A DNA stretch of 64,000 nt from Mycobacterium sp. Root265 (GTDB lineage Bacteria > Actinomycetota > Actinomycetes > Mycobacteriales > Mycobacteriaceae), in assembly GCF_001428895.1 (NCBI RefSeq), contig NZ_LMJA01000028.1:253972-317971 (forward strand), in the 5' to 3' direction. The notes beneath the pieces were generated by a model. That model was not told the DNA's origin, searched no databases, and saw only the letters and a program-made list of their open reading frames with translations. The position numbers and the translations under genes were made by a program. Below, in pieces: positions 27,993-61,020 of this stretch; the stretch's first letter is position 1; the number at the start of each line of letters is the position of its first letter.

Positions 27993-28469
27993 TCAGGGTT
28001 GCGGGTAGCCGCGCCGCACCGTCCGGTCCAGAATGCCCAGGGTGGCGCGCAGCGCGCTCTCTGGGATGACCGGAAAGATGCCTGCCTCGCGCCACTTGTC
28101 GGTGATGTTGGACCAGTCGTAGAACGAGGTGACCAGCGTCCCGTCGCCGGTCGGTTCCAGGCGGTAGCCGTAGACGTGGCCGATCTGCGGTTTGATCTGA
28201 CCCAGGATCGTCCAGGCGATCAACCGGTCCTGCTCGAACTCGGTGATGTCGACGGTGACGTCATACTTGCCCATCGGAAAGTCGTTGAGCGCTTCACGAT
28301 CCATGTGCACGACGAACTGATCGCCCACCTGCCGCGCCGGCGCCCCGGTGGCGTCCTGCAACATCCCGGAAGCATCGATGGCGACGTGTCCCTGCGGGTC
28401 GGCCAGCACCGCGAAGATGTCGGCGGCCGGTGCCGCGATGGTGCGCTGCACTTCGAAGCGTTCGGTCAT
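27993..28469 (-). CDS. SRPBCC-family protein
   Basis: A 158-residue START/Bet v1-fold protein: FEVQRTIAAPAADIFAVLAD at the N-terminus is the typical first strand and helix, and the C-terminal RATLGILDRTVRRGY the long helix. Such proteins bind hydrophobic ligands or act as cyclase/aromatase-like enzymes; none can be named here. It lies 12 bases after the methyltransferase gene and two bases from the clpC2 operator. Confidence 0.83.
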   Translation of the reverse strand: MTERFEVQRTIAAPAADIFAVLADPQGHVAIDASGMLQDATGAPARQVGDQFVVHMDREALNDFPMGKYDVTVDITEFEQDRLIAWTILGQIKPQIGHVYGYRLEPTGDGTLVTSFYDWSNITDKWREAGIFPVIPESALRATLGILDRTVRRGYPQP

Positions 28470-28481
28470 GCGGTGTGCTCC

Positions 28482-29138
28482 TCAACTGGTGGGTGCGGGT
28501 TTGCGGGCGATCAGATACCCCTGCGGTGTCGATTCAACACCGTCGCCCTCGGGTTCTCGGACGAGTCGGGCGTGCACGGGCAGGCCGGCGTCGTTCAGCA
28601 GCTCTGCGACGGCCTCGGGACGGCGGCGGTGAAAGAGCAGGTCGACGCGTTCGCCGAACGCCTCGGTCAGGTGGCGCGGCCGATCGCCGATCTGGAAGGC
28701 CAGCAGCGCCACGCCGCCCGGGATGAGCACCCGGTGGAACTCGGCGAACACCGCGGGCAGTTGATCGTCGGGGATGTGGATCACCGAGTACCAGGCGCAC
28801 ACGCCGCCGGCGCACGCATCGGGCAGGTCGAGGTCGGTCATCGATCCCACGCTGAAGCCGATGTCCGGATGAAGCCTGCGGGCTTGGGCAATCATGTTGG
28901 GCGACAGATCGATTCCCGATACCTGTGCACCATTGTCGCGCAGGATCGTGGTGGCCGCGCCGGTGCCGCAGCCGATGTCGATGACCTGCTGGTTCGGCGG
29001 CACCATGTCGGTGAAGGCCTTCAGCACGGCGAGGTCCAGGGGTTTGTCGTCCAGGTGGTACTGGAATGCCGCGACGTATCCGGCGGCGGTGCGGTCATAA
29101 CCGTCGCGGGTGCGGTCCAGGAACGGGGTTTCAGCCAT
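28482..29138 (-). CDS. Class I SAM-dependent methyltransferase
   Basis: A 218-residue protein from ATG 29138. Motif I is VIDIGCGTGAATTILRDNG, motif II SGIDLSPNMIAQAR, and the motif IV region is GVCAWYSVIHIPDDQLPAVF, as in Methyltransf_11/25 enzymes. The acceptor substrate is unknown. Upstream extension to 29318 would cross the divergent small gene. It heads a probable pair with the SRPBCC gene. Confidence 0.87.
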   Translation of the reverse strand: MAETPFLDRTRDGYDRTAAGYVAAFQYHLDDKPLDLAVLKAFTDMVPPNQQVIDIGCGTGAATTILRDNGAQVSGIDLSPNMIAQARRLHPDIGFSVGSMTDLDLPDACAGGVCAWYSVIHIPDDQLPAVFAEFHRVLIPGGVALLAFQIGDRPRHLTEAFGERVDLLFHRRRPEAVAELLNDAGLPVHARLVREPEGDGVESTPQGYLIARKPAPTS

Positions 29139-29163
29139 CGACGCTGAGGTTACTGTCGACGGT

Positions 29164-29349
29164 ATGCGTATCGCGGTGTTGGTCATCGGAATAGTCGTCG
29201 CCATGTTCGGAACGCTCTTCGCGTTCCAGGGATTCGGGGTGGTCGGCGGCAGTCCGATGAGCGGTACCACCACGTGGTCGGTGCTCGGGCCGATCATCGC
29301 GCTGATCGGAGTGGGCATCGCGGGCTACGCCTGGCGTCTCAAGCCCTGA
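29164..29349 (+). CDS. Small two-helix membrane protein
   Basis: A 61-residue product from ATG 29164; TACTGT ends seven bases before it, marking a leaderless start. Helix 1 is about residues 3-25 (IAVLVIGIVVAMFGTLFAFQ) and helix 2 about 39-57 (VLGPIIALIGVGIAGYAW), with a glycine-rich loop between. The short basic end is RLKP. Proteins of this size and shape are common in mycobacteria; none has a known role to my knowledge. Confidence 0.65.
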   Translation: MRIAVLVIGIVVAMFGTLFAFQGFGVVGGSPMSGTTTWSVLGPIIALIGVGIAGYAWRLKP

Positions 29350-29416
29350 CTCATCCCACGGGCTGTCCCACGCTCGGGGGATAGGAGAGCCGGTTCGGCG
29401 AGCGTAATCTTCGCGC

Positions 29417-29791
29417 ATGAGTGGGGAATTGGGCGTCGCGATCGGTGTCGTGATGATCGCCGCGGTGACTGTCACGGTGGTTGTCGCGCGCCGGCGGCGA
29501 CGGGCCCGGCTGCTGGCTGCCGAGACTCCCGAGGTTAAGTACCGGCGTGAGGTTGCCGCATTGCGGCCCAAGCAGACTCGGGAGGACCGCGCACCCGGCG
29601 GCCCGGCGGTCGAGCGTTACCACGAGCGCAAGCGCAAGGACGTGCGCAACCGGCGGTCCAAGCGGATGTGGGCTGCTGGATCCGCTGGAGCGGTGGGGAT
29701 CGGGCCGGACGGTTTTCCCGGCAGCGGCGGTGACGGTGGTGCGGGCTGCGGTGGGGGTTGCGGCGGCGGTTGCGGTGGGGGTGGGAGCTGA
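29417..29791 (+). CDS. Membrane-anchored protein with Gly/Cys-rich tail
   Basis: A 124-residue product from ATG 29417 (TAATCT six bases upstream). One N-terminal helix (residues 6-24, GVAIGVVMIAAVTVTVVVA) is followed by a very basic segment (RRRRRARLL), a charged middle (YHERKRKDVRNRRSKRMW) and a tail rich in glycine with three cysteines in the pattern C-G3-C-G3-C. The TGA overlaps the next ATG. I do not recognise a family. The pattern suggests a Cys-based modification or metal site at the C-terminus, which is speculative. Confidence 0.65.
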   Translation: MSGELGVAIGVVMIAAVTVTVVVARRRRRARLLAAETPEVKYRREVAALRPKQTREDRAPGGPAVERYHERKRKDVRNRRSKRMWAAGSAGAVGIGPDGFPGSGGDGGAGCGGGCGGGCGGGGS

Positions 29792-29988
29792 TGAACGTAG
29801 TGCTGGCCCTCCTTGCGCTGGCCGCGTTCGTCGGCGGGGCGGGGGCTTACCTGTGGTGTGAGAGCTCGGCCCGCAAAGATCGTGAACGCCGGGGGCAGGT
29901 GTGGCGGCAAGACGGCAGCGGTGGAGGTGGTTTCGGCGACGGAGGTGGTGGATGCGGCGGTGGCGGCTGTGGTGGAGGCGGTGGCTGA
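29791..29988 (+). CDS. Second small membrane protein with Gly/Cys-rich tail
   Basis: A 65-residue product whose ATG overlaps the stop of the preceding gene (ATGA). Residues 2-22 form one helix (NVVLALLALAAFVGGAGAYL), followed by WCESSARKDRERRGQVWR and a glycine tail with the pattern C-G4-C-G5 at the end. It repeats the plan of its neighbour (helix, basic linker, Gly/Cys tail) at half the length, so the two look like related partners. Low-complexity coding makes the call tentative. Confidence 0.6.
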   Translation: MNVVLALLALAAFVGGAGAYLWCESSARKDRERRGQVWRQDGSGGGGFGDGGGGCGGGGCGGGGG

Positions 29989-30004
29989 TGATCCGGGCCC
30001 ACTT

Positions 30005-30032
30005 TTGACGTTCGTCGACCGCGGTGTAATCT
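30005..30032 (+). promoter_or_regulatory. Promoter of the aromatic leader transcript
   Basis: TTGACG (30005-30010), 16 bases, TAATCT (30027-30032). The -10 ends seven bases before the GTG of the leader peptide at 30040, so the leader peptide would be read from a leaderless mRNA. Confidence 0.65.
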
Positions 30033-30039
30033 CACCCTC

Positions 30040-30114
30040 GTGAACATCCGCGTGCGCGCCGGCTATTGGCGCTTTATCGAGGCTCCGGGCGGAGCCGATA
30101 AAGCGCAGCACTAA
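30040..30114 (+). CDS. Aromatic-amino-acid leader peptide (attenuator peptide)
   Basis: A 24-codon frame from GTG 30040 to TAA 30112-30114. Codons 9-12 are Tyr-Trp-Arg-Phe, so all three aromatic amino acids occur within four codons. It sits between a good promoter and a terminator and precedes a DAHP synthase gene, the entry enzyme to aromatic amino-acid synthesis. Ribosome stalling at these codons when charged tRNAs are short would change folding of the RNA downstream. A leader peptide (aroR) before aroF has been described in Corynebacterium. The peptide itself is predicted only from sequence. Confidence 0.75.
   Translation: MNIRVRAGYWRFIEAPGGADKAQH
30069..30106 (+). promoter_or_regulatory. 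Leader hairpin overlapping the Trp/Phe codons
   Basis: Ten pairs (30069-30078 with 30097-30106) plus six (30081-30086 with 30091-30096), a GA bulge and a GGGC loop. Its 5' arm contains the Trp and Phe codons, so a stalled ribosome would melt it. Bases 30081-30093 can instead pair with 30122-30134 (12 pairs, one mismatch), giving two exclusive folds. Confidence 0.7.
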
Positions 30115-30136
30115 GCACGCATCCACCCGGAGCCCA

Positions 30137-30168
30137 GGCAGTGACCACTTTTGGTCGCTGCCTTTCGT
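30137..30168 (+). terminator. Attenuator terminator before DAHP synthase
   Basis: An eleven-pair stem (30137-30147 with 30152-30162, one G-U), a four-base loop and TTTCGT after it. It lies 55 bases before the DAHP synthase start, where only premature termination makes sense. The U run is short, as is usual in mycobacteria. Confidence 0.7.
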
Positions 30169-30222
30169 CATTCAAGGGCGCCCGGGATGTCACTCAGGTG
30201 CCCATACCAGAAAGGCACCATC

Positions 30223-31275
30223 GTGAACCTGGCGCAGACCGCCACCGCACCCGCAACGTCGGACCGGCGGATACGCAGTTTCAGCGAAATCCCCAGCCCG
30301 CATGAGGTGCTCTCCGAGTTCCCGCTGGGCGCCCGCCGTGCCGAACGCGTCGCGCGCGACCGCGACGAGATCGCCGACATCCTGGCCGGCCGCGACGATC
30401 GCCTGCTCGTGGTCGTGGGTCCCTGCTCGGTACACGACCCGGAGGCGGCCCTCGACTACGCCAGCCGACTGGTCAAGGTCGCCGACGAACTCGGTGACCG
30501 GCTCAAGATCGTGATGCGGGTCTACTTCGAGAAGCCCCGCACCACGATCGGCTGGAAGGGCCTGATCAACGATCCCGGCATGGACAACACCTTCGATGTC
30601 ACCCGAGGCCTGCGCACCGCACGGCAATTGCTGCTCGACATCATCGACATCGGCCTGCCGGTGGGGTGCGAATTCCTGGAACCCACCAGCCCGCAGTACA
30701 TCGCGGACGCTGTCGCCTGGGGTGCGATCGGGGCCCGCACCACCGAATCCCAGGTGCACCGCCAGCTGGCGTCGGGACTTTCGATGCCGGTCGGTTTCAA
30801 GAACGGCACCGACGGCAACATCCAGGTCGCCGTCGACGGCGTGAAAGCCGCTGCCGCCCAGCATGTCTTCTTCGGCATGGACGATATGGGTCGCGGCGCG
30901 CTGGTGAACACCGAGGGCAATGAGGACTGCCACGTCATCCTGCGCGGCGGCACCGCCGGACCCAACTACGACGCGGACTCGGTACGCGACACGGCGGCCA
31001 AGCTGACCGCCGCCGGCCTTCCGGGCCGGGTCGTGATCGACTGCAGCCACGCCAATTCCGGTAAGGACCACGTGCGGCAGGCCGGGGTGGCCGCCGAGGT
31101 GGCTCAGCTGGTGCGCGACGGATTGCCGGTCAGCGGCGTCATGCTGGAGAGCTTCCTGGTCGCCGGCGCCCAGGCCCCCGAAGCGCGTCCGCTGACCTAC
31201 GGACAGTCCGTCACCGACAAGTGCATGGACTGGAGCGCAACCGATCTCGTGTTGCGGGAGCTCGCGGCACGTTGA
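30223..31275 (+). CDS. Class I DAHP synthase (3-deoxy-7-phosphoheptulonate synthase)
   Basis: A 350-residue enzyme condensing phosphoenolpyruvate and erythrose 4-phosphate in the first shikimate step. Start GTG 30223 has AAAGG eight bases upstream. VVVGPCSVHDPEAALDYA, VMRVYFEKPRTTIGWKG and GARTTESQVHRQLASGLS are class I (AroFGH) signatures; metal and substrate residues include the Cys of GPCS and the His of DCSHANSGK. M. tuberculosis has only a type II enzyme (Rv2178c), so this is an extra isoenzyme. The leader peptide and terminator upstream indicate aromatic attenuation. It ends 12 bases from the convergent reductase gene. Confidence 0.95.
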   Translation: MNLAQTATAPATSDRRIRSFSEIPSPHEVLSEFPLGARRAERVARDRDEIADILAGRDDRLLVVVGPCSVHDPEAALDYASRLVKVADELGDRLKIVMRVYFEKPRTTIGWKGLINDPGMDNTFDVTRGLRTARQLLLDIIDIGLPVGCEFLEPTSPQYIADAVAWGAIGARTTESQVHRQLASGLSMPVGFKNGTDGNIQVAVDGVKAAAAQHVFFGMDDMGRGALVNTEGNEDCHVILRGGTAGPNYDADSVRDTAAKLTAAGLPGRVVIDCSHANSGKDHVRQAGVAAEVAQLVRDGLPVSGVMLESFLVAGAQAPEARPLTYGQSVTDKCMDWSATDLVLRELAAR

Positions 31276-31287
31276 CCCCGGGTGCTG

Positions 31288-32205
31288 TCATCGGTCGGTC
31301 GCTGCGGTGAGCCGGCGTCCCAGTCGCTTGGTGGCGTCTTCGGCGGTCGGTGCGGGGCCGAACAATTCGGCCTGTCGGGTGGTGTCGGCGACGTAGTTGC
31401 CGGTATCGAACCAGCTGAACATGGCGGCCATGTCCTTGACGATCGGCAGGAAGGGGCTCAGCACCGTGCCGGCGAATCGGGCGACCGGTGCCGGGATCGC
31501 ACGCACCGCGATGTGGTGATCGGTGGCCTCACCGATCAGTCGGGCGGCCTCCTTGACGGCGACCGGCCGGTCCCAACCGATATCGATCCGATCGCCGTCG
31601 ACGGTATCGGCGTCGACGGCCGCGGCGAGGTAGTGCGCGAGGTCGGAGATCAGGACAAAGGTCAGCGGTGAATCGGGCTTACCGATCCAGAGGATGCGGC
31701 GTTTCTTGATCGGATCTCCGCCCATGGTCGCGATCTGGTCCAGGAAAGCGCCCGGCCGCAGCGCGACGAACGGGACGCCGAGTTCCTCGAGCTTGTCCTC
31801 GGCGAGTTTCTTGTGCCAGAAGTGCGGTACGCCGGGGGTCTGGTCGCTGGTGAGGATGCTGGTCAGGACGAAGCGCCGGATTCCGGCGCGGTGTGCGGCC
31901 TGGGCGAGGTTGGCGTTGCCGACGGTGTCGATATCGGTGGCACTGTTGCCGCCGCGGGTATAGCCGGCTGCAGTGGTGATGACCGCATCCGCACCTGTCA
32001 TCGCCGTGACGAGTGACTCGATGTCGAGCATGTCACCGCGGGCGATCTGAACGCCGCGGCTCTCCAGTGCGCTCGCGTCGGTGGTCGGCCGGACGAGAGC
32101 TCGTACGCGTTTGCCGCGCTTGAGCAGTTCGTCGACGACCTGGCCGCCGAGGTTGCCGGTGGCGCCGACAACGAGGACAGGCAGTGGTGAAGCATTGGCG
32201 GTCAT
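31288..32205 (-). CDS. NmrA-like NAD(P)-binding protein
   Basis: A 305-residue atypical SDR from ATG 32205, which overlaps the MarR stop (ATGA). VLVVGATGNLGGQVVDELL is the GxxGxxG cofactor loop, and VRALVRPTTDASAL carries the basic residues that favour NADPH. The family includes quinone reductases and redox sensors (NmrA, HSCARG, QOR2). It is the last gene of the QOR-MarR-NmrA operon, so a redox or quinone stress role is reasonable. Confidence 0.87.
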   Translation of the reverse strand: MTANASPLPVLVVGATGNLGGQVVDELLKRGKRVRALVRPTTDASALESRGVQIARGDMLDIESLVTAMTGADAVITTAAGYTRGGNSATDIDTVGNANLAQAAHRAGIRRFVLTSILTSDQTPGVPHFWHKKLAEDKLEELGVPFVALRPGAFLDQIATMGGDPIKKRRILWIGKPDSPLTFVLISDLAHYLAAAVDADTVDGDRIDIGWDRPVAVKEAARLIGEATDHHIAVRAIPAPVARFAGTVLSPFLPIVKDMAAMFSWFDTGNYVADTTRQAELFGPAPTAEDATKRLGRRLTAATDR

Positions 32206-32681
32206 GTGTTTTCGCTTTCCGGAGGGCCCACTGTCGGGGGCCGAGTGTTGATCGAATCGATGATGGTGCGCGCCGCGGCGAGCAGTGTGTTGGTCTGTTC
32301 GGGTGTCAGGTTCTGGGTGGTGACGTCTTCGAGCTCGCGCCACATCGCCGCGATGGGCGCGCGCATCGCCTCACCCTTGGCGGTGAGACTATTGATCGAC
32401 ACGCGCCGATCGTCTTTGTCGGGGGTGCGGACGATGAGCCCGCTTTCCTGCATGCGGCGCAGCGCCTTGGACATCGTCGAGTGGTCGACGCCGACGCTGG
32501 CGACCAGCTCCGATTGCGTCTGGCCATCCCGGTGATGCAGATGCATGAGGATCAGCTCCTGACCGGGGTGAAGATCCATCCGGCGCAGCAGTGCCGCGGC
32601 GTAACCGCGGTGGGCGCGCGCGAGTTCGAAGATTGCGTAACTGACCTGACCCTCGTCGAAGGGCGCGGTGGAGTCGGGCAT
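32202..32681 (-). CDS. MarR-family regulator
   Basis: A 159-residue winged-helix protein. The recognition part is QTQSELVASVGVDHSTMSKAL and the wing RTPDKDDRRVSINSLTAKGE, classic for MarR. It is the second gene of a three-gene operon (11 bases after the oxidoreductase gene), whose promoter carries a large inverted repeat, so it probably represses its own operon and responds to a phenolic or oxidant. Redox cysteines are absent. Confidence 0.92.
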   Translation of the reverse strand: MPDSTAPFDEGQVSYAIFELARAHRGYAAALLRRMDLHPGQELILMHLHHRDGQTQSELVASVGVDHSTMSKALRRMQESGLIVRTPDKDDRRVSINSLTAKGEAMRAPIAAMWRELEDVTTQNLTPEQTNTLLAAARTIIDSINTRPPTVGPPESENT

Positions 32682-32692
32682 GAAAGGTCCTC

Positions 32693-33598
32693 TCAGTCGA
32701 CGGTGAGCGCCAGTTTGCCCCGGGTGTGGCCGGCGTCGCTGGCGTCCTGGGCGGCCGCGGCCCGCTCGAGCGGGTAGGCCGTGACGGTTGTGATCAGCGT
32801 TCCGGCGGCGGCGTCCCGGGCGAGCTGGGACAGGCGTGCCGAAGAACGTTCGGTGGGCCCGCTGGCGAACGTGATACCGAGCTCGTGGGCCCGGAAATCG
32901 GCGATGGTGACGATGCGGTCGGTGCTGTCACGCAGTGTGATCGAATCCTCGAGGGAGCCTTTGCCTGCCACGTCGAACACGGCGTCGACCCCTCCCGGTG
33001 CCAGTGCCCGCACCCGTTCGACCAGGCCCTCGCCGTAGACGGTGGCGGTGGCGCCGAGCGAGGCGAGATAGTGCTGGTTCGCCGCTCCGGCGGTGGCAAT
33101 CACGCGTGCACCGCGGGCCAGCGCGAGTTGCACCGCGACCGTCCCGACTGCGCCGGCGGCACCGTGCATCAGCAGAACCTCGCCGTGCTTGATGTCGAGC
33201 AGGTCGAGGACGCCGTCGGCGGTGGCGCCCGCGATGGGCAGGGCAACGGCGCGCTCCCAACTGAGGTCGGCCGGTTTGATCGTGACGGTGCTCGCCAGTG
33301 CGTACTCGGCGTAGGCGCCGGTATCGGACCAGCCCAGCACGTGGTCACCCACCGACACCTCGTGCACGTCGTCGCCGACGGCGTCGACGACCCCGGCCAA
33401 CTCAAAGCCGGGAATGGCGGGTAGCGGGGTGGGGAAGGCCGCGCTCATCGCGCCCGAGCGGATCTTTCCGTCCAGCGCGTTCACGCCGGCGGCACGGACC
33501 CGTACCCGCAGCTGTCCCGGACCGGGTTGCGGTGCCTTGATGTCGACGAGGTGTAGTTCGGCGGTGGTGCCGAAACGGTCGAACTGGATGGCTTTCAT
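32693..33598 (-). CDS. NADP-dependent quinone oxidoreductase-like MDR enzyme
   Basis: A 301-residue zinc-free medium-chain reductase. Start ATG 33598 has AAGGGGAG eight bases upstream; an ORF start at 33643 lies inside the operator. FELAGVVDAVGDDVHEVSVGD and the cofactor loop HGAAGAVGTVAVQLALARGA (AxxGxxG) identify the quinone-reductase branch. No Cys/His zinc ligands are present. It is the first gene of the MarR operon. Confidence 0.92.
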   Translation of the reverse strand: MKAIQFDRFGTTAELHLVDIKAPQPGPGQLRVRVRAAGVNALDGKIRSGAMSAAFPTPLPAIPGFELAGVVDAVGDDVHEVSVGDHVLGWSDTGAYAEYALASTVTIKPADLSWERAVALPIAGATADGVLDLLDIKHGEVLLMHGAAGAVGTVAVQLALARGARVIATAGAANQHYLASLGATATVYGEGLVERVRALAPGGVDAVFDVAGKGSLEDSITLRDSTDRIVTIADFRAHELGITFASGPTERSSARLSQLARDAAAGTLITTVTAYPLERAAAAQDASDAGHTRGKLALTVD

Positions 33599-42303: not shown

Positions 42304-43349
42304 CCGGCGGCTCCGATTCGATTGGCGCGGGCCAGCAGCCACAACAGCACCGGGGCTCCGACGATGGCGGTGAGGATGCCGACCGGCATCGCCATGGGGG
42401 CGAACAGAATCCGCGAGGCCAGATCCGCGCCGACGACGAGCAGCGCGCCGATCGCCGCGGACGGCGCCAGCCCGGTGTGCCGTTCGGCCAGCAGGCGCCG
42501 GGCGATCTGCGGGGCAACCAGCGCGACGAACCCGATGGGCCCGGCCGCGGCGGTCGCCATCGCGGCGAGCGTCACCGCCACGAGAACCAGTGCCACGCGG
42601 TGGACTTGCCGTGTTCCCAGGGTCTTGGCGAGGTCGTCACCGAGTTCCAGTAACTGCAGATGACGGGCCAGCACGGCCACGGCCGGAACGGCGACCAGCA
42701 GGGTCACGCCGATCACCGCGACGTGCAGGGTGCTCCGGTTGGCCAGGCTGCCGGTCAACCAGACCGCGGCAGTCATGGCCTCGTGGGTATCGGCGCGGGT
42801 GAGCAGATAGGAGATTGCCGACGTGAGCACCGAGGCGACGCCGATGCCGACCAGCACCAGGCGGAACCCGTGCAGGCCGCGTTTGTAGGCGATCAGCAGG
42901 ATGGCGGCCGCCGTGACGAGCGCACCGATCAGTGCGCCCAGCACGAGTGTCATGCCACTGCCGCCCATCACCGTCAGCACGATCAGCGCGCCAAGGGCCG
43001 CACCGGAGTTGATGCCGATGACGTCCGGGCTCACCAGCGGATTGGTGGCGATGCGTTGCAGGATGGCGCCGGACAAAGCGAACGCCGCGCCGACACCGAG
43101 GCCGGTGAGCACCCGGGGCAGACGGTCGCCGACGACGATATCGCGTTCGATGGGGGTGCCGCCGCCGGCCAGGATGGCCGGTACATCACCGACCGCGATC
43201 GGGAATTCGCCGAGCGTGAGCGATATCGCGGCCACGAAAACCGCTGCGAGCCAGCTGATGACCGCGATGAGACTGCCGGCGCGGCTCATTCTGATCGCAA
43301 TGCGGCCACCGCCGGAGGCCATGACGACGCCATCCCGAGTACTGGTCAC
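42300..43349 (-). CDS. btuC: Cobalamin-type ABC importer, permease subunit (second)
   Basis: A 349-residue FecCD/BtuC-family permease from GTG 43349, which overlaps the preceding stop. About ten helices are visible. RLPRVLTGLGVGAAFALSGA and IATNPLVSPDVIGINSGAAL form the conserved core, and GFVALVAPQIARRLLAERH is the coupling region that contacts the ATPase. It should pair with the other permease as a heterodimer. Confidence 0.92.
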   Translation of the reverse strand: MTSTRDGVVMASGGGRIAIRMSRAGSLIAVISWLAAVFVAAISLTLGEFPIAVGDVPAILAGGGTPIERDIVVGDRLPRVLTGLGVGAAFALSGAILQRIATNPLVSPDVIGINSGAALGALIVLTVMGGSGMTLVLGALIGALVTAAAILLIAYKRGLHGFRLVLVGIGVASVLTSAISYLLTRADTHEAMTAAVWLTGSLANRSTLHVAVIGVTLLVAVPAVAVLARHLQLLELGDDLAKTLGTRQVHRVALVLVAVTLAAMATAAAGPIGFVALVAPQIARRLLAERHTGLAPSAAIGALLVVGADLASRILFAPMAMPVGILTAIVGAPVLLWLLARANRIGAAG

Positions 43350-44407
43350 AGTCCGGAGACCTTCCTATTGCGCACCAGGTACAGAAAGACCGGAGCACCG
43401 GCCAAGCCGGTGACGATGCCGACCTGGAGTTGCTGCGGGGACACCAGGATTCGGCCGAGTATGTCGGCGAGCAGAAGCAGTGTCGGCGCGAGCACCACCG
43501 TCCACGCCATGATCCAGCGGTAGTCCGGACCGGTGATCAATCGCGCGATGTGCGGGACCACCAGCCCGATGAAGCCGATCGGTCCGGCGATCGCGGTGGC
43601 GCCGCCCGCCAGCAGGACGACCGCGAGCGCGGCCGCCAGACGTGCCGACCACAGTCTCGTACCCAGGCTGCGCGCCATCTCGTCGCCCAGTGCCAGCACG
43701 TTGAGGGTGCGGCTCGTGACGATGGCGGCGCAGATCCCGGCCGCGATGAACGGTGCCACCGCCGTGAGGGATGTGCCGTTGGCGCGGGTCAGCGATCCGA
43801 CGACCCAGAATCGGAAGTCCTCCAGGGTGGTGGCATCGAAAAGCGTGATCGCGGAGGTGATGGCGCCCACGAACGCGGTGAATGCCGCACCGGCCAACGC
43901 CAGCTTGACCGGGGTCGCTCCACCCAGGCCGAGCGACCCGAGCGCGTAGACGAACACCGCTGCGACCGCTGCTCCGGCGAAGGCGAACCAGACGTATCCC
44001 GCTGCGGTCGTGACACCAAGGAACGTCATGGCGACAACGACCGCCAGCGCGGCACCGGAATTGATGCCGAGGATCCCCGGCCCGGCCAGCGGGTTGCGGG
44101 TGATCCCCTGCATCACGGCACCGGCAATGCCCAGGGCGGCACCGGCAAGGATTCCGGCAACGGTTCGGGGAATCCGGATGTGCCGCACGATGCGGTCCAG
44201 ATCGGTCTCTGGCGGACCGGATACCGCCGCGATCACGTCGTCGATCGTGACCGCGTAGTTCCCGATCAGGACGGAGGCCACCGCCGCCCCGGCGAATATC
44301 GTTGCCGCGACAGCGAGTCCCAGCAGTCGGCTCCAGCCGCCCTGCAGCAGGCCCCGGCGAATGTCAGTTGACCAGGTCGGGATGGAGGATCGAGGCCACC
44401 ACCTCAA
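43346..44407 (-). CDS. btuC: Cobalamin-type ABC importer, permease subunit (first)
   Basis: A 353-residue BtuC/FecCD permease. IRIPRTVAGILAGAALGIAG, GITRNPLAGPGILGINSGAA and GFIGLVVPHIARLITGPDYR are the family core and coupling motifs. The frame's only usual start is TTG 44407, which overlaps the binding-protein gene by 44 bases; a later non-standard start is possible, so the N-terminal 20 residues are uncertain. Confidence 0.9.
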   Translation of the reverse strand: MRWWPRSSIPTWSTDIRRGLLQGGWSRLLGLAVAATIFAGAAVASVLIGNYAVTIDDVIAAVSGPPETDLDRIVRHIRIPRTVAGILAGAALGIAGAVMQGITRNPLAGPGILGINSGAALAVVVAMTFLGVTTAAGYVWFAFAGAAVAAVFVYALGSLGLGGATPVKLALAGAAFTAFVGAITSAITLFDATTLEDFRFWVVGSLTRANGTSLTAVAPFIAAGICAAIVTSRTLNVLALGDEMARSLGTRLWSARLAAALAVVLLAGGATAIAGPIGFIGLVVPHIARLITGPDYRWIMAWTVVLAPTLLLLADILGRILVSPQQLQVGIVTGLAGAPVFLYLVRNRKVSGL

Positions 44408-45398
44408 CGGCGTGCGCAGCCCGGATGCCGGCAGCCCGATCGGAGAACAGGTAGGGGTGCACCTGACCGTTCTTCACCGCCGCGACACCGGCCAGTGCGG
44501 GATTGGCGGCCAGTGTGGCAGCCTCCTGGGCGCCGCTCTCGCGGGTGTAGGAGATGTCGCAGCAGACGCTGGTCAGGATGACATCAGGGTCACGGCGAAT
44601 CAGCTCCTCGATGTCGACATCGACATGGCGGCGTTGCTGCAGATCGGCGAAAGCATTGACACCACCGGCGTGTTCGAGAATCTGGGTGCCAAAATCGATG
44701 CCGCCTGCGACGCGGTATCCGCCGTCTTCGTCGATGAGCATGATGGCCACGGACGGGCGCTCGGCACCGGCGACTGTCTGCTCGACAGCGGCAATCCGCT
44801 CCTGCTGTTCGGCGATCGCGGTGTCGGCCCGGTCCTCGGCGTCGAAGATCTTGCCGAGGTCGCGCAGATCCTGGTAGATCGTGTCGACGCGCACCGACGC
44901 GGGATCGATGGCCTCATCGGAGAGTCCGTCTGCGCTGGGGCACAGCGGGCTCAGGATCCAGGATTGAATACCCAGCTCTGCCAGGCTGGCTCGGGTTCCG
45001 ACGCTGGTGTCGCCGCTGCCCTCGGAGAAGAAATTGTTGTAGCCGGAGAGGACGAAGTCGGGCTGTGCGGCGAGCAGGCCGTCACGGCTCGGGAGCTGCG
45101 CCGCGTAGGGCACTCCCTGCTGAGCCTCGGCGTACTCGGGCAGTACCTGCGAGTCGAGGAAGGCGGTGCCGACCAGTCGATCACTGATGCCGAGCGCGTG
45201 AGCGATCTCGGTGGCGGGCTGATAGGCGGCGTACACGCGCTCGGGCGGCTGGTCGACGGTCACCTCGATACCGCAGTTCTGGATTGTCACCCCCTCGCCG
45301 TCCGCCCGGCTGGTCTGCTCGGTGGTGTCGGCCGCACAGCCTGCGGCGAGTATCGCGACAACGGCCGCGGTCAGTGTTCGGGGCAATGCACGGGCCAC
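44364..45398 (-). CDS. btuF: Cobalamin-type ABC importer, substrate-binding lipoprotein
   Basis: A 344-residue periplasmic-binding protein from GTG 45398 with GGAGAGG upstream. The signal peptide ends in a lipobox (AILAAGC). The class III fold with a helical backbone starts at VYAAYQPATEIAHALGISD. It corresponds to FecB/BtuF proteins. A paired Cys-Cys (TSVCCDISYTRE) is unusual. A longer frame up to 45479 would translate through the riboswitch and is rejected. Corrinoid specificity is inferred from the riboswitch 42 bases upstream. Confidence 0.88.
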   Translation of the reverse strand: MARALPRTLTAAVVAILAAGCAADTTEQTSRADGEGVTIQNCGIEVTVDQPPERVYAAYQPATEIAHALGISDRLVGTAFLDSQVLPEYAEAQQGVPYAAQLPSRDGLLAAQPDFVLSGYNNFFSEGSGDTSVGTRASLAELGIQSWILSPLCPSADGLSDEAIDPASVRVDTIYQDLRDLGKIFDAEDRADTAIAEQQERIAAVEQTVAGAERPSVAIMLIDEDGGYRVAGGIDFGTQILEHAGGVNAFADLQQRRHVDVDIEELIRRDPDVILTSVCCDISYTRESGAQEAATLAANPALAGVAAVKNGQVHPYLFSDRAAGIRAAHAVEVVASILHPDLVN

Positions 45399-45439
45399 AG
45401 TGAGCCAGCCTCTCCAGATCCTCGTGGATGGGGTACTTC

Positions 45440-45625
45440 TGTAGCCGTGGCCGGTCTCCTGGCTGACGGGTGCAGGCATCTCGGCCTTCCCAAGAACCGG
45501 TGAGGTTCTCAGTGACCCCGCTGCGTTGTGCGCAGAGGAAAGAGATGCTGCATGTCCCGATCACAGTGGCGAGGGCCGCGCCGGTATCGCACCGGCTTCC
45601 CGAACACCACGGCTGGTGGCGAGGC
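45440..45625 (-). promoter_or_regulatory. Cobalamin (AdoCbl) riboswitch
   Basis: On the minus strand the RNA shows GGGAAGCCGGTGCGATACCG and then CCTCGCCACTGTGA, the conserved core, and at its 3' side the B12 box GTCAGCCAGGAGACCGGCC (45467-45449). Order and spacing fit the class, and the element precedes the BtuF-type gene directly. It should shut the importer down when cobalamin is plentiful. The outer limits are approximate. Confidence 0.93.
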
Positions 45626-45632
45626 TATCAGC

Positions 45633-59205: not shown

Positions 59206-60072
59206 ATGACCTCGCAACCCAACCCCCCGTTCCACTACAGCCCGATCACCGAACGGCCCCCGCTGAGCTGGCCCGGCGGCGCCCGGGTCGCCGTGTACAT
59301 CGGCCTCAACGTCGAACACTTCCTGCCGGACCGGCCCTCGACCAGCATCTGGCCCGGCACCGCCGACCTGCAGCCCGACGCGCTGAATTACGGGTGGCGT
59401 GACTACGGAGCCCGGGTCGGTATCTGGCGGACCATCGAGAGCCTCGACCGGCACGGTGTGCGGCCCAGCGTGCTGCTCAATTCCGCAGTCATCGAACACC
59501 ATCCGCAGATCATCGCCGCCGGACGGGAACGTGACTGGGTGTGGTTGGCGCATGGTCGGACCAACTCGATCCTGCACAACGGGTTCGGTGTCGACGAAGA
59601 ACGCCGGCTGCTCACCGAGATCACCGCCGCCATCGCCGAGGCCACCGGCCGCAGACCGCTGGGCTGGATGGGCCCTGGCCTCACCGAGACCCATCACACC
59701 CCGGAGTTGTTGGCCAACCTCGGCTATCGGTACGTGCTCGACTGGACCAATGACGACCAGCCCTACCCGCTGACCGAATACGGGATGCTCAGCGTCCCGT
59801 ATTCGGTGGAGCTCAACGACCTGCTGCTGTTCGGAAAGGGCTTCACCGGTCCGGAATTCGTGCAGATCGTCATCGACCAGTACGAACAACTGTCCGCGGA
59901 TGCCGCGAACGGGTCGGGGCGGGTACTGGCCTTGGCGCTGCATCCGTTCGTCATCGGGCAGGCCTTCCGGCACAAGTATTTCGATCAGGTGCTTGCCTAT
60001 CTGGCATCGCGGCCCGATGTCTGGCTGACAACCAGCGATGACATCGCTGCCGCGTTCTTGGGTACTGTGTGA
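59206..60072 (+). CDS. Polysaccharide-deacetylase-family hydrolase (PuuE/allantoinase-like)
   Basis: A 288-residue NodB-type protein. RVAVYIGLNVEHFLPDRPST is the N-terminal strand where the metal Asp is often replaced, as in the PuuE-like group; VLLNSAVIEHHPQIIAAGRE contains metal-type His, and ALALHPFVIGQAFRHKYFDQ the final His. PuuE-like members open cyclic amides or remove formyl/acetyl groups from small molecules. The substrate is unknown. Its stop is followed at once by the ZTP riboswitch of folD. Confidence 0.85.
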   Translation: MTSQPNPPFHYSPITERPPLSWPGGARVAVYIGLNVEHFLPDRPSTSIWPGTADLQPDALNYGWRDYGARVGIWRTIESLDRHGVRPSVLLNSAVIEHHPQIIAAGRERDWVWLAHGRTNSILHNGFGVDEERRLLTEITAAIAEATGRRPLGWMGPGLTETHHTPELLANLGYRYVLDWTNDDQPYPLTEYGMLSVPYSVELNDLLLFGKGFTGPEFVQIVIDQYEQLSADAANGSGRVLALALHPFVIGQAFRHKYFDQVLAYLASRPDVWLTTSDDIAAAFLGTV

Positions 60073-60073
60073 A

Positions 60074-60139
60074 TCGCGACTGGCGAAGGTGGGACACCAC
60101 CAGGAAGCACACGTCTCGGAAGCATCGACCGCCTGGGTG
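60074..60139 (+). promoter_or_regulatory. ZTP (pfl) riboswitch
   Basis: CGCGACTGGCG (60075-60085), GGTGGGACACCACCAGG (60088-60104) with GTGG-CCAC pairing, and CCGCCTGGG (60129-60137) match the pfl RNA core in order and spacing. It is placed before folD, a known target of this class, which senses ZTP/ZMP when 10-formyl-THF is low. Confidence 0.88.
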
Positions 60140-60160
60140 CTCCTCATCTGCGAGGAGCAC
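60137..60160 (+). promoter_or_regulatory. Expression-platform hairpin hiding the folD ribosome site
   Basis: GTGCTCCTC-ATCTGC-GAGGAGCAC is a perfect nine-pair stem. The 3' arm contains GAGGAG, eight bases before TTG 60166. The 5' arm overlaps the riboswitch end at 60137, so ligand binding should free the ribosome site. Confidence 0.8.
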
Positions 60161-60165
60161 GCACC

Positions 60166-61020
60166 TTGACTGCGAACATCATCGACGGCGTACGCGTCGC
60201 CAACGACATCCTGGCCGACACCCGCCGAAAGGCCGTGGAGTTCGAACACGCCGCAGGCCGAAAGGCCTGTCTGGCAACGGTGCTGGTCGGCGATGACCCG
60301 GCGTCGCACACCTACGTGCGGATGAAGATCAACCGCTGCCGCACCACCGGCCTGTATTCCCGCAGTCACCATGTCGACGCCACGGCGAGCACCGCCGACG
60401 TCGTCGCGTTGGTCGAACACCTTTCGGCGGACGACACCGTCGATGGCATCCTCGTCCAGCACCCGATGCCCGCCCAGATCGATGAACGCGCGGTGTTCGA
60501 GGCGATCGCACCCGGCAAGGACGTCGACGGGGTCACCACGGCGTCCTTCGCGGCCATGGCCCTGGGCGGACACGGATTCCGGTCGTGCACCCCGGCCGGC
60601 ATCATGCACCTCCTCCACGCGTACGGTGTCGATCCGACCGGGCAGCACGCCGTTGTCGTGGGCCGCAGCCCCATCCTGGGCAAGCCCGTCGGAATGCTGT
60701 TGCTGGCCCACAACGCCACCGTCACCTACTGCCATTCGCGCACTGTGGACCTGCCCGGTGTCATCGCCCGCGCCGACATCGTGATCGCGGCGGTCGGGAA
60801 GCCCGAGCTCATCAGGGGTGACTGGATCGCACCCGGGGCGGTGGTCATCGACGCCGGGTACAACCCGGGCAATGTCGGTGACGTCGAGTACGCGGCGGCC
60901 GCCGAGCGCGCCGGGCTGATCACACCGGTGCCCGGCGGCGTCGGCCCGACCACCATCGCCGTCCTCCTGGAGCAGACCGTCGCGGCTGCCCTCAGCTCGC
61001 CGCGGCCGGCGACGGGGTGA
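60166..61020 (+). CDS. folD: Methylene-THF dehydrogenase/cyclohydrolase
   Basis: A 284-residue bifunctional enzyme from TTG 60166. The catalytic Lys is in TYVRMKINRC, with the substrate motifs QHPMP, PGKDVDGVTT and CTPAGIMHLL; GRSPILGKPVGMLLLAHNAT is the NADP site and TPVPGGVGPTTIAVLLEQ the C-terminal signature. All key residues are present. Mycobacteria have a housekeeping folD elsewhere (Rv3356c), so this is an accessory copy controlled by a ZTP riboswitch. It ends 29 bases inside the convergent monooxygenase gene. Confidence 0.95.
   Translation: MTANIIDGVRVANDILADTRRKAVEFEHAAGRKACLATVLVGDDPASHTYVRMKINRCRTTGLYSRSHHVDATASTADVVALVEHLSADDTVDGILVQHPMPAQIDERAVFEAIAPGKDVDGVTTASFAAMALGGHGFRSCTPAGIMHLLHAYGVDPTGQHAVVVGRSPILGKPVGMLLLAHNATVTYCHSRTVDLPGVIARADIVIAAVGKPELIRGDWIAPGAVVIDAGYNPGNVGDVEYAAAAERAGLITPVPGGVGPTTIAVLLEQTVAAALSSPRPATG

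Follow-up and report, generated by a model that had tools for sequence, protein, structure and literature searches.

The locus analysed here raises the question whether the RNA ahead of aroF, a gene for a class I DAHP synthase, can sense the aromatic amino acids, and by which step such a signal would reach the gene. The window, meaning the whole stretch of 64,000 nucleotides that was analysed, comes from Mycobacterium sp. Root265. The original prediction placed a leaderless leader peptide with Tyr, Trp and Phe codons, part of a ribosome-mediated attenuator, in front of this gene, and comparison with related genomes supports it. We put the probability at roughly 65 % that the element is a ribosome-mediated attenuator which senses charged tRNA-Tyr, tRNA-Trp and tRNA-Phe via one leaderless peptide and controls the class I DAHP synthase. 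Its sensing part is strongly supported by the comparison of sequences; the output step is one that we infer, and some results speak against it.

All features of the locus lie on the plus strand. The aroF gene (30223-31275) starts with GTG and encodes a protein of 350 amino acids that scores 499.8 bits against TIGR00034 (cut-off 173.2) and also matches PF00793. A Shine-Dalgarno-like GAAAGG is found at 30210-30215. The leader ORF (30040-30114), separated from the aroF start by 108 nt, begins with GTG and has 24 codons followed by TAA (30112-30114); the peptide read from it is VNIRVRAGYWRFIEAPGGADKAQH. Its codons 9, 10 and 12 are Tyr (30064), Trp (30067) and Phe (30073), together with Arg forming the sensor stretch TAT TGG CGC TTT at 30064-30075. 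Upstream of it a -35-like hexamer TTGACG (30005-30010) and a -10 element TAATCT of the form TANNNT (30027-30032) are spaced by 16 nt, and the -10 element lies 7 nt ahead of the peptide start. The predicted promoter hexamers, the GTG and the 24 codons with their aromatic residues were thus found by direct reading, at coordinates agreeing within a few bases. A simple scan of 29700-30400 called no sigma-70 promoter. Glycine-rich reading frames occupy the region directly 5' of the leader promoter (29417-29989).

Promoter geometry argues for a leaderless start of the peptide, as had been proposed. All 142 leaders have a TANNNT ahead of the peptide start, its end being 7 nt away in 129 of them and 6 nt away in 13, the starts having been picked by their distance from the conserved core, independently of the promoter. 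As a control, only 6 of the 1551 GTGs in the window have TANNNT at 5-9 nt. A Shine-Dalgarno-like motif precedes the leader peptide in one of the 142 leaders. The -35 hexamer is not conserved, TTGAC occurring in 11 of 142. A leaderless start had also been called an unusual basis for attenuation. This point did not hold, leaderless leader peptides having been reported in other actinobacteria. Indeed, the accessible part of a study on Streptomyces lividans lists eight of them, none for a DAHP synthase (PMC8079986), and the reference list of another paper, seen in excerpt, includes an ilvBNC leader peptide formed without a ribosome binding site (PMC4046766).

Among 397 Mycobacterium genomes searched, 140 contain aroF, and all 140 carry the leader 5' of the gene, giving 141 copies with one leader duplicated. 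The copies were searched in the upstream regions of all 140 genomes with the core TAYTGGCGCTTTATnnnGGCTCCGGGYGGRGCC, allowing up to 4 substitutions, and 131 of the 141 match the pattern exactly. Over all 397 genomes the same pattern was matched in 130, in one of them twice. These matches equal in number the 131 exact copies before aroF, so that by count none remains to be assigned to another gene or to any of the 257 genomes that lack aroF. Nucleotide conservation of the leader is strong, and its ORF has 23-25 codons in 138 of 142 cases. A simpler search for YWRF or YWRY in frame upstream was positive at 14 of 80 loci; the pattern was missing at the remaining 66, of which many lie outside Actinobacteria. 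A type II DAHP synthase was present in all 61 genomes of a further search, that of the window included, which makes the class I aroF a second, optional DAHP synthase. Two irregular loci were encountered. Genome G231 (L133, L220) carries two copies of the leader and aroF sequence at a distance of about 1 kb, and one of the aroF copies matches residues 1-162 only. At L187 (genome G154) segment A of the leader RNA adjoins segment B (both defined below) and the intervening stretch is missing, as if the RNA were locked in its A:B state.

The RNA of this region is predicted to be highly structured: 176 nt from 30047 fold at z = -6.1, and 0 of 200 shuffles folded as low. In the predicted free fold the 5' hairpin (30069-30106) consists of K:K' (30069-30078 with 30097-30106) and A:A' (30081-30086 with 30091-30096). 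The 16-pair hairpin of the original prediction is therefore present, except that its 5' arm holds just the last base of the Trp codon, followed by the Arg and Phe codons. Segment A (30081-30093) can pair with A' or with B, and segment B (30122-30135) with A or with C, according to folds and comparison, with compensatory changes in the case of A:B. The predicted A:B helix of the window joins 30081-30089 to 30126-30134 and 30091-30093 to 30122-30124. Directly 3' of B follows hairpin T (30136-30163), a terminator-like structure of 12 bp (30136-30147 with 30152-30163) with conserved position and compensatory changes, and after it a weak T-rich tail, TTCGTCATTC (30164-30173). Segment C (30176-30189) is predicted to pair either with B, through 30176-30179, 30182-30186 and 30188-30189, or with D, through 30176-30182. 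Segment D (30197-30203) would pair with these bases of C or with D' (30214-30219), which overlaps the Shine-Dalgarno motif. In this way six alternately pairing segments follow in the order A' - A - B - C - D - D'. In the free fold of the window D:D' lies over the Shine-Dalgarno motif, and the aroF start region (30223-30226) is predicted to be paired as well, with TCAC at 30190-30193. A pairing of K' with the 3' arm of T was considered and amounts to only 5-6 bp by eye. A search of the Rfam 15 families gave no match at E up to 1 in 28000-33000, and an Rfam label for the leader was dropped. Known RNA elements were recognized elsewhere in the window. A cobalamin riboswitch (RF00174, 81.1 bits) lies at 45432-45626 on the minus strand, upstream of the minus-strand ORFs 44364-45479 and 43346-44407, which by eye resemble an ABC importer binding protein and permease. 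A ZMP/ZTP riboswitch (RF01750, 46.2 bits) lies at 60066-60145 on the plus strand, just before ORF 60166-61020, FolD-like by eye.

Comparison supports the helices to different degrees. In a MAFFT alignment of 37 leaders (A1), 95.6 % of the cells of A:B and T pair, versus 33.6-49.1 % in slid versions, and both sides have changed at 4 of the 11 pairs of A:B and at 7 of the 11 of T. For 74 model-fitted matches (A3) these counts are 6 of 11 and 10 of 11; A3 having been fitted to the model, its counts lean to structure, and A1 gives the less biased count. The downstream helices were compared with shuffles and permutations, whose figures still contain shared ancestry. A pairing of B with a segment 3' of T scores in the top 5 % relative to shuffles for 140 of 211 leaders (90 of the 97 closer leaders, 15 of the 40 other Mycobacterium leaders and 35 of the 74 other leaders), although reversed B of the same composition comes close (-16.0, -17.5 and -14.7 versus -18.2, -18.4 and -17.2). 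With one leader per distinct B (46), B:C is more stable within its own leader than after swapping (-18.0 versus -16.2 kcal/mol), and 0 of 5000 permutations were as good. L037 and L048 were left out of the C:D and D:D' sets, leaving 140 of 142 leaders. In 124 of these, the pairing of C with the sequence that extends to the start codon ranks in the top 5 % relative to shuffles, and for 23 distinct C segments own partners again surpass swapped ones (-16.0 versus -14.7, equalled by 0 of 5000 permutations). For D:D' such a rank is attained by 82 of 140 leaders (73 of 97 closer ones, 9 of the 43 others). Joint changes are visible by eye: C GGGCCCGG occurs with D CCGGGC, and C GGGCUCC with D GAGCCC. 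In Catellatospora, also by eye, A GGCUCUGGG, B CCCAGAGCC and C CUGGG change together.

The sensor codons are nearly invariant. In the 141 Mycobacterium copies TAT is found 134 times, TGG 139 times, CGC 140 times and TTT 141 times; among the exceptions, CGG stands in place of TGG in two copies, and in place of TAT one copy has CAT and another ATG. TTT makes up 5.5 % of TTT plus TTC in 36 ORFs of the window, used as gene proxies, versus 141 of 141 in the leader copies; for TAT the share of TAT plus TAC in the same ORFs is 24 %. A wider set of 211 leaders spans several actinobacterial families, with near-identical relatives not thinned. Conservation of the aromatic codons in relatives had been set beforehand as a test of the idea, which survived it: F, W and Y all occur within the seven codons before segment A in 182 of 211 leaders. 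The others have F and Y (20), F and W (4), F only (4) or W and Y (1). These seven codons contain 3.0 aromatic residues on average; the aroF product of the window is itself 4.9 % aromatic. The set varies by lineage yet stays aromatic, with versions such as RYPYF, WYAYF, WYRRF, YFWF and WRFYF.

Relatives of the leader occur well beyond the genus. A covariance model of A:B plus T matched 42 of 296 genomes of the class, once each, in 14 genera, and a class I aroF was present in the fetched locus for 33 of the 42 matches. One match (L264) adjoins an apparent tRNA and was judged false. Eight others (L254, L257-L263) precede a different reading frame. Three of these eight proteins were scanned; in Pfam all three hit DAHP synthase I as well as chorismate mutase type II, while their scores fall under the NCBIfam cut-offs shown, and the five remaining ones are similar by eye. 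By reading, the leaders of all eight contain Phe, some also Tyr, and none Trp. A search of the family found aroF in 127 of 151 genomes. Of 48 upstream regions read, 45 have, within 400 nt, a short ORF in which a run of 5 codons includes 3 or more for aromatic residues, and the three remaining regions contain related leaders by eye. Two Corynebacterium-like leaders (L294, L295) encode a WRFYF peptide and share with the others A:B and T by eye, though the covariance model did not find them. In L294, A:B adjoins T and a T-rich tail follows; a partner for C was not seen by eye. The model matched 74 of its 87 sources, and consequently L294, L295 and the YFWF-like loci L300-L308, L311 and L312 stand outside the 211 leaders.

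To see how translation of the leader would act on these helices, 142 leaders (97 closer ones, 40 from other Mycobacterium and 5 from outside the genus) were folded with a ribosome placed on set codons. They were kept from a total of 146; L219 lacked an accepted start, and L187, L192 and L211 lacked the exact B motif, although L192 and L211 carry CCCGGGGCC, which is still able to pair with A. With no ribosome, the 5' hairpin, T and D:D' are predicted to form, and B:C reaches at least 5 pairs in just 47 of 97 closer leaders and in 36 of 40 other Mycobacterium leaders. A stall on Tyr or Trp raises the mean number of A:B pairs from 1.8 to about 9.0 in the closer leaders, where B:C falls from 4.4 to below 0.1, and from 0.6 to about 8.1 in the 40 others, where B:C falls from 7.8 to about 1.5. 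At least 6 A:B pairs then form in 96-97 of 97 and 31-32 of 40 leaders, respectively. The models thus predict mutually exclusive helices, A:A' and B:C versus A:B, with A:B favoured on a Tyr or Trp stall. The five leaders from outside the genus have a dominant A:B even without a ribosome (6.9 pairs).

Other positions gave graded outcomes. A ribosome on the Arg codon yields intermediate A:B. With the standard footprint, a ribosome on Phe leaves no leader with 6 or more A:B pairs, and A becomes free at this codon only if the footprint is short: in 46 leaders (33 and 13 by group) A:B has 8.9 and 8.5 pairs at +8, and 3.4 and 0.6 at +12. A ribosome on Ile or in the middle of the hairpin causes loss of A:B and return of B:C. 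On the stop codon of the leader, A:B is formed too, with 8.7 mean pairs in the 97 closer leaders and 8.0 in the 40 others, and at least 6 pairs in 94 of 97 and 32 of 40, a result that speaks against a simple reading of the switch. The closed state would therefore need quick release of the ribosome at the stop codon. Without a stall, the folds predict a sequestered Shine-Dalgarno motif. At equilibrium in the presence of D', stalling hardly alters access to this motif (from 0.35 to 0.39 and from 0.40 to 0.46), and D:D' of the window remains even in the stalled state. When the RNA is cut before D', C:D is predicted to reach at least 5 pairs in 138 of 140 stalled versus 71 of 140 free leaders; for the window the values are 9.0 pairs stalled versus 0.5 free. 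With C:D predicted before D' is made and D:D' persisting at equilibrium, the opening step would depend on co-transcriptional order.

These data suggest the following mechanism. When ribosomes pass and leave, K:K' with A:A' would form and B would pair with C around hairpin T. In this free state D would pair with D', hiding the Shine-Dalgarno motif and the start codon. A stall on Tyr, Trp or Phe would cover K and block the 5' hairpin, so that A pairs with B. C would then be released and pair with D once D is transcribed, opening the ribosome site of aroF. Hairpin T, situated between B and C, may add a termination or pause step, weakened by the abutting A:B. Conservation of the peptide, the promoter geometry and the helices, together with the predicted A/B switching, has its basis in comparison and folding. 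What we infer beyond this is that the leader responds to amino acids, that translation opens, that T takes part at all and that ribosomes are quickly released at the stop codon.

The place of hairpin T in this scheme bears most directly on the output step. The alternative pairing of the original prediction, A:B, is present and excludes the 5' hairpin; it does not exclude T, with which it has no overlap. In the simulations T averages about 10 to 13 pairs in every state; whatever the position of the ribosome, 8 or more pairs form in 91-97 of the 97 closer leaders and in 40 of the 40 others. Strand exchange between A:B and T was rejected accordingly, T is not the alternative of A:B, and the models contain no antiterminator that overlaps and excludes a terminator. 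It is nevertheless conceivable, if somewhat doubtful, that attenuation is transcriptional only, with T as a regulated intrinsic terminator whose closure in the RNA exit channel is hindered by the adjacent A:B. In 209 of 211 leaders the gap between B and T measures 0-6 nt (0-2 nt in 180), a T-rich tail follows T in most leaders, and in L294 A:B stands beside T with such a tail. The YFWF-like loci lack T in the folds read. There B and C form a local hairpin, with seven T behind it in L311 and six in L307, a simpler version that looks like classical attenuation with A:B as antiterminator. By analogy, these loci hint that in leaders possessing T, too, A:B may oppose termination, in that case from its abutting position. 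C. glutamicum aroF has moreover been described as transcriptionally attenuated in the accessible part of one paper (PMC11802643). Against a purely transcriptional output stand the coexistence of T with A:B in the simulated states and the weakness of the tail. The terminator predicted at 30137-30168 proved to be the 12-bp hairpin with its T-rich tail, but a simple scan of 29700-30400 called no intrinsic terminator, and in Dietzia (L037, L048) the T tract is nearly absent. B:C and C:D, both 3' of T, would also be left unexplained.

These last pairings fit an effect on aroF translation alone, with T as a spacer or pause hairpin, a proposal that we hold just as tentatively. B:C and C:D pair better within than between leaders, D' overlaps the Shine-Dalgarno motif and the start codon is paired in the free fold. 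Cysteine genes of Mycobacterium smegmatis are reported to be under translation attenuation in the part of PMC13236596 that was available. However, T has stronger compensatory support than A:B and mostly keeps its T-rich tail, the equilibrium gain in Shine-Dalgarno access is small, and the Corynebacterium-like L294 lacks a visible C partner. Two further explanations concern the sensing part. An effect of the peptide as such, be it as an arrest peptide or as a small protein in trans and not as a codon counter, would agree with YWRFI-x-APGGA being kept as a peptide across Mycobacterium. It is very improbable, considering that L166 and L174 stop directly after YWRFI while retaining the RNA segments, that the C-terminal conserved residues fall within pairing segments, that rare codons are kept letter for letter, and that other lineages have reordered or replaced the aromatic residues. 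Still less credible is a conserved RNA in which the leader peptide plays no role, for example a riboswitch for an aromatic metabolite; the strong nucleotide conservation and the z-score of -6.1 would suit it, whereas the start, length and aromatic codon content of the ORF are conserved and no Rfam family matched at E up to 1.

The attenuator reading finds its closest parallel in the aroR leader of aroF in Corynebacterium glutamicum, reportedly described by Neshat et al. in 2014. Like aroR, the leader analysed here is a short ORF rich in end-product codons before a class I DAHP synthase. The parallel, already drawn in the original prediction, is apt, other genera of the family having the WRFYF and YFWF versions. 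The two differ in that aroR has Phe-Tyr-Phe and answers to Phe limitation, while the present leader has Tyr, Trp and Phe and, unlike aroR as described, adds B:C, C:D and D:D', which reach the Shine-Dalgarno motif. In the E. coli trp and phe attenuators, too, the position of the ribosome on end-product codons selects the RNA helix, and the antiterminator takes the 5' arm of the terminator; here A:B and T do not overlap and the start appears leaderless. In translational attenuation of the ermC type, a stall frees a sequestered Shine-Dalgarno sequence via alternating segments. The present leader resembles it in its alternating segments and in the proposed freeing of the Shine-Dalgarno motif; it differs in having six segments and a nested hairpin T, and the proposed signal is amino acid supply and not a drug.

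Published work, as far as the sources were accessible, agrees with this picture in part. The C. glutamicum aroF leader is given with Phe-Tyr-Phe (PMC4046766), and aroF transcription is said to rise on Phe limitation via AroR; Tyr availability is reported to have no effect there, which speaks against three-amino-acid sensing (both in the accessible part of PMC11802643). Polycysteine leaderless ORFs of mycobacterial cysteine genes are likewise short, leaderless and amino acid responsive, but concern cysteine and other genes. The available part of PMC13236596 cites them as mycobacterial attenuators (Canestrari et al. 2020) and describes translation attenuation of cysteine genes and transcription attenuation of ilvB1; excerpts of PMC4633059 mention candidate cysteine-rich uORFs. 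The LEU element before leuA in Actinobacteria, from what was accessible of PMC1262725, also combines a conserved leader peptide, structured RNA and involvement of the Shine-Dalgarno sequence. There the sensor codons pair with the Shine-Dalgarno sequence, whereas here it is D that does so in the predicted folds, and the LEU label was dropped. The same excerpts report no conserved RNA structure before the phenylalanine or tyrosine operons of Actinobacteria. A search of open-licence papers found no description of a mycobacterial or streptomycete leader of this kind. What is new here is a structural variant of the aroR kind of attenuator, with a range wider than in the description found.

A bolder generalization is tentative and, on present evidence, on the unlikely side. 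It holds that the leaders make up one attenuator family throughout the actinobacterial class, where a single leaderless peptide reads all three aromatic amino acids, six segments relay the ribosome position past T to the Shine-Dalgarno motif, and A:B both weakens termination by abutting T and opens translation via C:D. If the attenuator reading is true, a regulator found described only for C. glutamicum would be an ancient device in general use among Actinobacteria, and one that senses three amino acids together. Its natural variants would swap amino acids, drop the terminator-like hairpin or precede a different aromatic gene, so that the co-evolution of leader peptide and RNA switch could be tested by comparison. 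It would also provide a case in which a helix beside a terminator, without overlapping it, decides the fate of that terminator.
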